Shown here: one piece after another, positions 55,296 through 58,568 of the stretch
How positions within the stretch are numbered: position 1 is the stretch's first letter
Layout: each line of letters begins with the position of its first letter
From: Pectinatus sottacetonis
GTDB taxonomy: Bacteria; Bacillota; Negativicutes; Selenomonadales; Selenomonadaceae
Direction: 5' to 3'
DNA: 64,000 nucleotides
Assembly: GCF_015732155.1 (NCBI RefSeq)
Contig: NZ_WIQK01000002.1
Location: forward strand, 1-64,000
Notes under the pieces: model-generated
Told to the model about the DNA's origin: nothing
The model's database searches: none
What the model saw: the letters and a program-made list of their open reading frames with translations, nothing else
Made by a program: the position numbers and the translations under genes

Positions 55296-55796
55296 TTAAA
55301 ACTTAACAGTAGCACCCACACCTACACCATTTTCGCTATGGCCATGATCAGGATCAAAATTATGATAATTTACATTAAGGCTGATATTAGCAATAACATT
55401 CATATTTATGCCAACCTGTGTTTCATCAAAATCACTGCCTTTTACATATGATGCATAAGCCTGAGGCCCTATCATATTCGGAGTAACTACAGCTATCCCA
55501 CCATATCCATTTGAATTATCACCTGGTAGATTATTACGAAAACCGGCAATGGCTTTCAAATTAGAACCAAACAAATCATATTGTGCATATATATCATTCT
55601 GATGATTATATTCGTCTCTGTCTAAGTATTGATAACCAATAGTCAATTTAGGGGAGAACTTATGTTCTATATATGATTCTCTTGTTCCTATCCCCACTGC
55701 TGTTTCATTATTTGCTAAAGTATTAATAGGTGCTGCCATTGCCGTTGATGCACCTATCAAAAAAATCGCGGCAAAAACAAAAAATATTTTTTTCAT
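55296..55796 (-). CDS. Secreted beta-rich protein, probable small outer-membrane barrel
   Basis: A 166-residue protein with a clear signal peptide (MKKIFFVFAAIFLIGASTAMA, cleavage after AMA). The mature part alternates hydrophobic and polar residues in short strands (KLTIGYQYLDRD, NLKAIAGFR, ISLNVNYHNFDPDH) and ends GVGVGATVKF. A terminal Phe preceded by alternating residues is the typical beta-signal for outer-membrane assembly. I do not recognise the family beyond a loose YfaZ-like or porin-like feel. It has its own promoter and terminator, so is probably abundantly expressed. Confidence 0.75.
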   Translation of the reverse strand: MKKIFFVFAAIFLIGASTAMAAPINTLANNETAVGIGTRESYIEHKFSPKLTIGYQYLDRDEYNHQNDIYAQYDLFGSNLKAIAGFRNNLPGDNSNGYGGIAVVTPNMIGPQAYASYVKGSDFDETQVGINMNVIANISLNVNYHNFDPDHGHSENGVGVGATVKF

Positions 55797-55967: not shown

Positions 55968-58568
55968 TTAAATTTTTTGTACAAAATCGACTGGAATGGT
56001 TTTTATGAACCTACTTACGGTATTTGCCCGGCCATGTTCACTTATTCGGCTCCATGTCAAGAATAATTGCCTTTTAGCTCGTGTTATCGCCACATAAAAC
56101 AATCGTTTTTCTTCTTCGACAACCCCTTCCCTTATCGCCAGATAAGCCGGAAAGATCCCGTCCTGCATGCCGGCCAAAAAAACATAGTCAAATTCTGTTC
56201 CCTTGGCCTGATGAACTGTAATTATTGGTATACGTGGTACCTTCATAAGCATTCTATCCATATCACTATTTGATAAAGCACTGATTTTTAGTAAATTATT
56301 TAGAGCATCACGTGAATAGACTTTTTTATTATCAATTTCCCTGGCAATAAGATATAATTCTCTTATCCTGTCAATACGTTCAGGTTCATTTTTATAATAT
56401 TCTTTTATCTTTGTTAGATTCATTATCTTGGCAATAAGATCATATGGCCGAACAATATAGCTATTATCCGTAAGTTCCTGCATCTGAACAGCTATCCACC
56501 TAAACTGATCTATATACTTACTAATATATTTTTTTCTTATTAACACAGATGGCCCTATATTCTTTTTCACTGCATATAACAACAATCCCACTGTGGCCAT
56601 TACATCGTCAAGTGCATTATGTGTTGGTTTATTTTCTATAACGAAATATTCACTTAAAAAAGATAACTTGTGGTTAGCTAAATCTGGATAAAATCTTCTA
56701 AATATATCCAATGTGTCATAATAAGTGATAAAATCTGGCTTATTCATATTTAATCTATCAAGCTGACTGTAAAGAATACTTATATCATAGCCCACATTAT
56801 GCCCAACGATCACTGTATTACGGGAAAATTCTATAAACTCTTGTAATACCAATGCCGGTGGTTCACCTTTTTCTTTTAAAAATGCATCGGAAAAACCGTG
56901 TACATAAAAGGACTGTCCCACCTTTTTATTTGGCTTGACCATTCGGACAAATTTATCTATTATAGTTCCATTTTTGTCAATTTTTACAGCAGCAATTTGT
57001 ATAATTTCATCGCAGGCTGTATCAGTTCCTGTACTTTCAACATCAAAAACAACTACTTTATCTTTAGCAAGGGCATCAAGTAAAATACCGAACGGATCTC
57101 CGCTTGATTCATAAGTTTTTCTATCCAAAAAATCAATAATATTTATTCCTGCCTTATGATATTTTTTTGTCTCTATAGCTGCAATAGTTTTTTCACCTAT
57201 ACCGATAGCAAACTTTTTTAATATGCGTCTAAAACTGGTCTCATCATATCGGTTTGTTATAAGGCGTAAAAAAGCCAGTACATCTTTTATTTCCTGCCGC
57301 CGAAAAAATTTAAATTCATCAACTAAAATAAAATTAACTCTATCAGCATTAGGCAATCTATTGTTTAATATACTGAAGTTTTTACTGAGTCGCTGATTAT
57401 ACTTGTTGCTTCTGGTAAGTATGCCTATACGGGCAACATCTTTTATCCCTATTTTATGAATTTCTTCAAATATCCATTTTGCCTCATCAGCAACATTTTT
57501 AGTTTCTTTAAAAATAATCTTCTCTCCCTGGACTCTACTAACGGCTTTTATTTCATTTTTATATATAGCATATACTTTTTCTCCAAATAGTTTTTTCAAA
57601 CAACCATATGATGCCCGCAAAAGCATTTGAGTTGCTCGATAATTTTCATTAAAAACAATAAGACGGGGATTATATTTTGCCTTGAATTTTTTTAATATCG
57701 TATGTGGATTAGAACCACGCCATTCATAAATCGTTTGAAAATAGTCACCGCATAATAAAATATTATTGCCAGGGAAAATTTGTGCTAATATTTCATATTC
57801 CAATTCGCTAGTATCCTGCATCTCATCAATGTTTATATATTTATATTTATTCTGCCATGCCGTTTTTATAGTTTCATCCTGAAGAAATTTATATACTGTA
57901 ATTATTAAATCAGTAAAGTCCAGCCCATGCATTTCCTGTAACCTGTGATCATATGCTGTAACAATATCTGCACCATTTGCTTGCATCAATGCTTTCATCT
58001 TTTTATCAAGAAAATAATGCTGGTTAACACATACTCTGTCCAGCTTTCTATTTTCACTGTTGAATAATTTTTTTATCACCCTTGCATAATCTGTATGTAG
58101 ATTATTTGAATAAATATTATAAACAGCTCTGTTTTCTTTCACCAAATTTATAAAATTTTGCAACGACTTTGTTACAAATTTGTAAACATTGAATTCTTTT
58201 ATGATTTCCGCACAATCATCCTCGTCAAAAATAACAAAATCCGCAAATAAGTCAGAATTTTTTTTAGCTTCAATTTTTATTAAATTATAACAGAAACTAT
58301 GGAAAGTCATAATGGCAATATTCAGACTGTTTTCTCCCAGTACTGTTGCAGCGCGCTCCTGTATCTCATGGCAGGCTTTGTTAGTAAAAGTTAGGCATAA
58401 TATTTCTTCTGGAGCCGCCTTATTTTTATCAATTATATTCACCATCCGGTACAATAATGTATTAGTTTTCCCTGTTCCCGCAGAAGCACTAAGCAGTATA
58501 TTATTCTGTAGATCATTTACAACCTGCTTTTGCATCTTATTCAGCATATTAAATATTTTATTTTCCAT
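55968..58568 (-). CDS. UvrD/Rep-type helicase with an inserted DnaQ-type 3'-5' exonuclease domain
   Basis: An 866-residue fusion. Superfamily 1 helicase motifs run along the chain: SASAGTGKTNTL (I, about 28-39), LTFTNKACHEIQ (Ia), IDEMQDTSELE (II), LLCGDYFQTIYEWRG (III), FNENYRATQM (IV), VHQAKGTEFDYVFLAGMQDG (V) and EEEKRLFYVAITRAKRQL (VI). Between IV and V, about residues 500-680, a DEDDh exonuclease is inserted: VFDVESTGTD, VGHNVGYDIS and HNALDDVMAT hold all catalytic acids and His. Presumably unwinds and trims DNA ends in repair. It is a stand-alone gene. Confidence 0.9.
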   Translation of the reverse strand: MENKIFNMLNKMQKQVVNDLQNNILLSASAGTGKTNTLLYRMVNIIDKNKAAPEEILCLTFTNKACHEIQERAATVLGENSLNIAIMTFHSFCYNLIKIEAKKNSDLFADFVIFDEDDCAEIIKEFNVYKFVTKSLQNFINLVKENRAVYNIYSNNLHTDYARVIKKLFNSENRKLDRVCVNQHYFLDKKMKALMQANGADIVTAYDHRLQEMHGLDFTDLIITVYKFLQDETIKTAWQNKYKYINIDEMQDTSELEYEILAQIFPGNNILLCGDYFQTIYEWRGSNPHTILKKFKAKYNPRLIVFNENYRATQMLLRASYGCLKKLFGEKVYAIYKNEIKAVSRVQGEKIIFKETKNVADEAKWIFEEIHKIGIKDVARIGILTRSNKYNQRLSKNFSILNNRLPNADRVNFILVDEFKFFRRQEIKDVLAFLRLITNRYDETSFRRILKKFAIGIGEKTIAAIETKKYHKAGINIIDFLDRKTYESSGDPFGILLDALAKDKVVVFDVESTGTDTACDEIIQIAAVKIDKNGTIIDKFVRMVKPNKKVGQSFYVHGFSDAFLKEKGEPPALVLQEFIEFSRNTVIVGHNVGYDISILYSQLDRLNMNKPDFITYYDTLDIFRRFYPDLANHKLSFLSEYFVIENKPTHNALDDVMATVGLLLYAVKKNIGPSVLIRKKYISKYIDQFRWIAVQMQELTDNSYIVRPYDLIAKIMNLTKIKEYYKNEPERIDRIRELYLIAREIDNKKVYSRDALNNLLKISALSNSDMDRMLMKVPRIPIITVHQAKGTEFDYVFLAGMQDGIFPAYLAIREGVVEEEKRLFYVAITRAKRQLFLTWSRISEHGRANTVSRFIKTIPVDFVQKI

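Follow-up and report, generated by a model that had tools for sequence, protein, structure and literature searches.

A UvrD-family helicase gene of Pectinatus sottacetonis with a predicted DEDDh exonuclease nested in subdomain 2B

The window analyzed here is a stretch of 64,000 nucleotides from Pectinatus sottacetonis (contig NZ_WIQK01000002.1, positions 1 to 64,000), and the gene of interest, referred to below as the exo-helicase, lies on its minus strand. It is a single uninterrupted open reading frame from ATG to stop that occupies exactly positions 55968-58568(-), stop codon included, encodes 866 amino acids and has homologs in our family, class and phylum samples. At the highest level of organization, the protein consists of two helicase modules annotated by Pfam. 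The N-terminal UvrD-helicase domain (residues 9-294, 57687..58544(-); E 3.5e-59, 201.2 bits against a cut-off of 23) carries motifs I, Ia, II and III, which contain invariant residues; the UvrD_C domain (residues 304-841; E 9.9e-99, 331.5 bits against a cut-off of 25.6) is interrupted by a third domain, RNase_T, which is nested within it (residues 506-662, 56583..57053(-); E 4e-29, 102.7 bits against a cut-off of 24). The match to RNase_T covers positions 1-163 of the 164-position profile, so the domain is complete.

The position of the nested domain can be delimited by alignment with three PcrA-type proteins that lack the exonuclease. The first part of UvrD_C (residues 304-480, 57129..57659(-)) comprises the start of subdomains 2A and 2B, with the conserved residues R386 and E426/K428 of the stretch QEIKD, and it includes the GIG motif of 2B (residues 456-458, 57195..57203(-)), whose role is described in PMC13238157. 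After this motif the three aligned proteins possess only a short loop, and it is here that the additional sequence enters. According to the alignment and the secondary structure of the predicted model, the inserted stretch spans about residues 481-674 (56547..57128(-), edges approximate) and is composed of a linker, the DEDDh exonuclease proper (about residues 503-665) and an exit helix; it adds about 190 residues to 2B relative to PcrA, UvrD and Rep. Downstream of the insert, 2B picks up again (about residues 675-775, 56244..56546(-), the least conserved part of the protein), and the protein closes with the final part of 2A (residues 776-866, 55971..56243(-)), which bears motifs V and VI, identified by Pfam and by invariant residues in TVHQAKG and in the stretch around R822/R830. 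The earlier note, made from the sequence alone, had located a full DnaQ-like exonuclease within subdomain 2, with motif IV ahead of it and motif V behind; this placement is right, and it can now be narrowed to subdomain 2B after the GIG motif.

Conservation was assessed in an alignment of 45 proteins of homogeneous exo-helicase architecture. The D-E-D-H-D set of the exonuclease – D509 (57042..57044(-)), E511 (57036..57038(-)), D595 (56784..56786(-)), H650 (56619..56621(-)) and D655 (56604..56606(-)) – is invariant in all 45 rows, and the same five positions are also invariant across the 57-58 rows of a wider alignment, in which the residue numbering is lower by 7 and the catalytic residues of the helicase part are likewise unchanged. 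On the helicase side, K34, D248, E249, Q278, R284, R311, R386, H786 and K789 are found in 45/45 proteins, and E820, R822 and R830 in 44/45, the remaining row having an unreadable X. Both catalytic sets are thus intact, as had been suspected from the single sequence. The two members from Bacteroidota replace R284 with L or M, and one of them replaces R386 with N, while R822 is absent from one fragment; the five exonuclease residues are kept in both Bacteroidota members and in Acetoanaerobium. The GIG motif is variable (G456 in 34/45, G458 in 43/45) and lost in the Chryseobacterium, Prevotella and Acetoanaerobium proteins. Measured as mean identity of 44 homologs to the window protein, the exonuclease (53.6%) belongs to the better conserved parts, together with residues 776-860 (57.4%); residues 9-415 reach 43.1% and the later part of 2B 33.7%.

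The AlphaFold model, computed from 45 sequences, is confident (mean pLDDT 89.0, pTM 0.83), and both folds are present in this one predicted structure. Its helicase part possesses the four-subdomain fold of UvrD and superimposes on the DNA-bound UvrD of D. radiodurans (4c30_D) with Z 37.6 and 3.0 A over 614 residues; structures of the open helicase give a poorer overall fit (3lfu, 13.5 A over 596 residues). For the predicted exonuclease fold, the matches are DnaQ and, at 1.9 A each, PolC (9qpc_A) and the DinG of S. aureus (9ii8_A); their Z scores are about 22 and their deviations about 1.8-2.2 A.

The taxonomic distribution was inspected in three overlapping samples. In the family sample, 70 of 121 genomes contain a match at E<=1e-60, and in 68 of these the matched range spans residues 509-655 (the matches in G082 and G089 are partial). 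The class sample yields matches in 60 of 200 genomes at the same threshold, of which 28 belong to the own family, 5 to family f4 and 27 to family f25; the phylum sample yields 20 of 299 genomes at E<=1e-70, 11 of them outside the class, with one match (G517) cut at residue 571. Four places in plasmid-collection records reach at least 80% query coverage, namely in Acetoanaerobium noterae, on a Chryseobacterium plasmid and in two Prevotella nigrescens records; RNase_T lies inside UvrD_C in the three of these places that were examined, two of which are Bacteroidota records. A single-protein query against the genome contigs returned 13 helicases, all of them lacking the exonuclease. A sequencing error that joins two genes, named in the earlier note as a ground for refutation, does not account for an architecture that recurs across genomes of the family, the class and the phylum; given the 68 of 70 family matches that span residues 509-655, a chance or frame-error join is ruled out. 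For 51 of the 121 family genomes no match was obtained at E<=1e-60; hence, the exo-helicase is dispensable.

A phylogenetic tree of 57 proteins, based on the helicase regions only and rooted at the midpoint, sets the exo-helicases apart from the PcrA-type helicases: the 30 exo-helicases are united by a branch that is supported at 99/99 and recovered in 98% of 200 bootstrap trees. The dataset includes five long rows, among them both Bacteroidota members and Acetoanaerobium, and a short AddA fragment (L006) was left out; because of the long branches, the placement of the Bacteroidota is less sure. The topology fits one old insertion event behind the exo-helicases. The exo-helicase is an old, widely inherited family and no local fusion. 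A mobile or phage origin is rejected: one viral scan found no relative, a second found no exonuclease inside a helicase frame among the best 80 of its 188 relatives, and of the 62 phage records with a match none reaches 80% query coverage. On one viral contig (L229:4860-8815(+)), the two parts are adjacent and unfused, an exonuclease-like frame (330 aa, 46 bits) preceding the UvrD frame (715 aa).

The gene neighbourhood is lineage-dependent, with mltG (YceG), comEC, recR or nitrite/sulfite-reductase-like genes next to the exo-helicase. Of the 5 loci from its own genus, 4 have mltG at a distance of 1.5 kb or less. In the window, a 166-aa frame (55296-55796(-)) separates mltG from the exo-helicase; it has a likely signal peptide, judged by eye, and no Pfam match, and one genus mate (L091) also has a relative. 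Among the 58 loci inspected with short flanks, 14 have comEC within 1.5 kb. The 11 loci examined in family f25 (of 27 matches) all have recR within this distance and a pseudouridine synthase on the opposite side; at locus L100, the three genes share a strand, with recR 271 bases upstream of the exo-helicase and the pseudouridine synthase 2 bases downstream of it. The labels recR, comEC and mltG (YceG) derive from Pfam, while the labels dnaX and holA given to neighbours are presumptive. No common partner gene was found across the loci compared. Because neighbours differ between lineages, the context does not fix the role of the protein.

The neighbourhood also bears on the possibility that the exo-helicase is an anti-phage defence protein, comparable to the reverse transcriptase-associated helicase or to the Gabija GajB helicases, which we consider improbable. 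Its top match in PADLOC is indeed RTasHel (428.7 bits, residues 7-863), and restriction- or defence-like genes adjoin the exo-helicase at three of the eight distant loci inspected (the Chryseobacterium plasmid, G355, and G351 with HSDR_N_2). However, the RTasHel model does not discriminate: the PcrA-like helicase of the same genome scores 410.4 bits, and 285 of 299 genomes match. Moreover, contig C2, to which the window belongs, contains no reverse transcriptase, all 11 RVT_1 matches being located on C1; on these grounds, a function as a DRT helper is rejected. The GajB models match the exo-helicase with scores below that of RTasHel, and no OLD-type nuclease was found by Pfam among ten window neighbours. 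The neighbours in the window are metabolic or housekeeping genes, and neighbours are lineage-stable in the own family and in f25, which likewise argues against a defence function.

Three features of these contigs are recorded here in their own right. Contig C1 of this genome (G000) carries eleven frames of 469 aa that are almost the same in sequence and match RVT_1; these are probably group II introns. In G355 (L108:3227-16464), four UvrD-like frames (645, 879, 438 and 872 aa), the exo-helicase among them, follow one another beside a 1452-aa helicase with a DUF559/MTES_1575 nuclease, possibly a defence island. On the Chryseobacterium plasmid (L086:39-8580), a type III restriction-like frame, a 1612-aa TmtA-like AAA protein and the exo-helicase follow each other in a row on one strand.

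The exo-helicase can next be compared with AddAB and RecBCD. These systems share with the exo-helicase the combination of an SF1A motor and a nuclease; they differ in the nuclease family and its position, and they are machines of two or three subunits. The nuclease of AddAB is of the PD-(D/E)XK type. The earlier note had envisaged a self-contained end-processing machine reminiscent of AddAB. Of this proposal, the union of a motor and a complete exonuclease in one chain stands, and AddA is also among the structural matches of the model (4ceh_A, Z 28.7), though with an rmsd of 10.3 A. The remainder does not: the genome is not devoid of addAB, since AddA (1178.9 bits, cut-off 707.65) and AddB (998.7 bits, cut-off 903.7) are both present, the nuclease belongs to another family, and it is placed in 2B rather than at the C-terminal exit. 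In addition, the exo-helicase scores far below the cut-offs of the AddA model (125.2 against 707.65 bits) and of the RecB model (128 against 696.05 bits), and a PD-(D/E)XK domain was not found among the 17 Pfam families listed at E<=1. We therefore regard a self-contained end-resection machine of the AddAB/RecBCD kind as quite unlikely, and a replacement of AddAB is rejected because both subunits are encoded in the genome. In the family sample, 116 of 121 genomes have an AddA match that scores above the cut-off. The two genes are unlinked in this genome, about 0.49 Mb apart (G000:C1:1413466-1417107(+) and C1:1902476-1905883(-)). A separate PcrA-like frame of 747 aa is found in the same genome; given the presence of AddA, AddB and this frame, the exo-helicase adds to them and does not replace them.

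With PcrA, UvrD and Rep, the exo-helicase has all helicase motifs, the four-subdomain fold and the GIG motif of 2B in common. Apart from the extra residues in 2B, it differs by its score of 330.7 bits against the PcrA equivalog model TIGR01073, whose cut-off is 911.2. One could suppose that the exonuclease is merely a passenger and the protein a PcrA/Rep-like accessory helicase with a regulatory or docking module; 2B is described as having a regulatory function in these helicases (PMC13238157, PMC6158625). A structural passenger, however, would have no need of five catalytic residues that are invariant in 45/45 proteins, and the chances of this explanation are slim.

The exonuclease of PolC is the best non-UvrD sequence match of the inserted domain (106 bits) and, as its fold match confirms, a close relative; like the latter it is a DEDDh exonuclease nested in another domain, but its host protein is a polymerase and the insertion is into PHP (PMC3919608). 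The PolC-type polymerase of this genome, a 1253-aa frame (G000:C1:1824365-1826866(-), L144, L146), lacks the exonuclease normally found in PHP. That the exo-helicase supplies in trans the proofreading exonuclease missing from PolC is the least probable of the readings considered and is rejected as compensation: among the family and class matches listed, every PolC starts at profile position 367 or later (longest frame 1350 aa), independently of the presence of an exo-helicase; apparently exonuclease-less PolC also occurs in genera without it, e.g. g8 and g12; the genome encodes two other RNase_T proteins; and the exonuclease-less PolC of some Clostridia and Negativicutes is already on record (PMC3919608). 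As the trait does not track the exo-helicase and has been published before, the two are not linked.

The nearest working analogy for the exo-helicase, and we use it as an analogy, is ExoDinG, the DinG of B. subtilis and S. aureus. Here, too, a DEDDh exonuclease is joined to a helicase (fold match Z 22.4), but the helicase is an XPD-like member of SF2 and the exonuclease is N-terminal (PMC11981726). The dinG_rel model matches the exonuclease part only (87.4 bits, cut-off 547.7). B. subtilis DinG degrades single-stranded DNA in 3'-5' direction as well as RNA in hybrids, according to PMC12525004.

Taken together, we favour as probable the view that the exo-helicase is a conserved chromosomal bifunctional protein, i.e. 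an SF1A 3'-5' DNA translocase that carries a PolC/DinG-type DEDDh 3'-5' exonuclease on its 2B subdomain and serves maintenance beside AddAB and the PcrA-like helicase. Architecture, conservation and predicted folds were observed; the two activities we infer. The UvrD/PcrA-like motor would load on single-stranded DNA and move in 3'-5' direction driven by ATP, while the exonuclease would ride on the 2B arm beside GIG, the element in contact with the duplex, and would trim a 3' end met at the junction or upon a swing of 2B. According to PMC13238157, 2B faces the duplex and the 3' end trails behind a 3'-5' motor. This layout suggests that the nuclease would act where a 3' end lies at the junction, or as part of a switch gated by 2B, and would not chop the tail in the manner of AddAB; the polarity of the motor argues against trimming of its own tail in the closed form. 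Candidate substrates may be 3' ends that are mismatched or form a flap, the 3' terminus of a strand undergoing displacement at a nick, or the RNA of an RNA-DNA hybrid. The putative role would be maintenance in replication and repair beside AddAB and the separate PcrA-like helicase, neither of which it would replace.

In helicases of the UvrD family, 2B turns through about 160 degrees and keeps the monomer inactive on duplex DNA, and Rep monomers unwind more when 2B is removed; UvrD1 of M. tuberculosis dimerizes through 2B-2B contacts in a stretch that includes Cys451. The match to UvrD1 ends at residue 467 of the window protein, which corresponds to residue 454 of the chain; Cys451 would therefore lie near residue 464, about 20 residues ahead of the insert, in what is an approximate mapping. 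This invites a speculation which we rate as possible but unlikely: the nuclease could be built into the motor switch 2B, close to the stretch used for UvrD1-type dimerization, such that the states of motor and nuclease are coupled and the coupling replaces dimerization or partner activators. A closed arm would then position the exonuclease at the junction, and an open arm would release the motor or withdraw the nuclease.

Helicase-nuclease fusions are usually built end to end; here the regulatory arm houses the nuclease, and it does so in the non-hexameric helicase family that has been studied best, a surprising placement of ordinary parts. In a literature search that covered few subscription journals, no description of a helicase with an exonuclease in 2B was found, and the protein is apparently a conserved UvrD-family variant with a built-in DEDDh exonuclease that is uncharacterised within the literature searched. 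Automatic annotation masks it as '3'-5' exonuclease' or 'ATP-dependent helicase'. The activation of UvrD-family helicases is still being worked out (PMC13238157). An old and conserved fusion points to real biology, and one that is easily purified as a single chain; control of a coupled activity by the motion of 2B would become directly testable. Common bacteria with a full AddAB thus keep a second helicase-nuclease.
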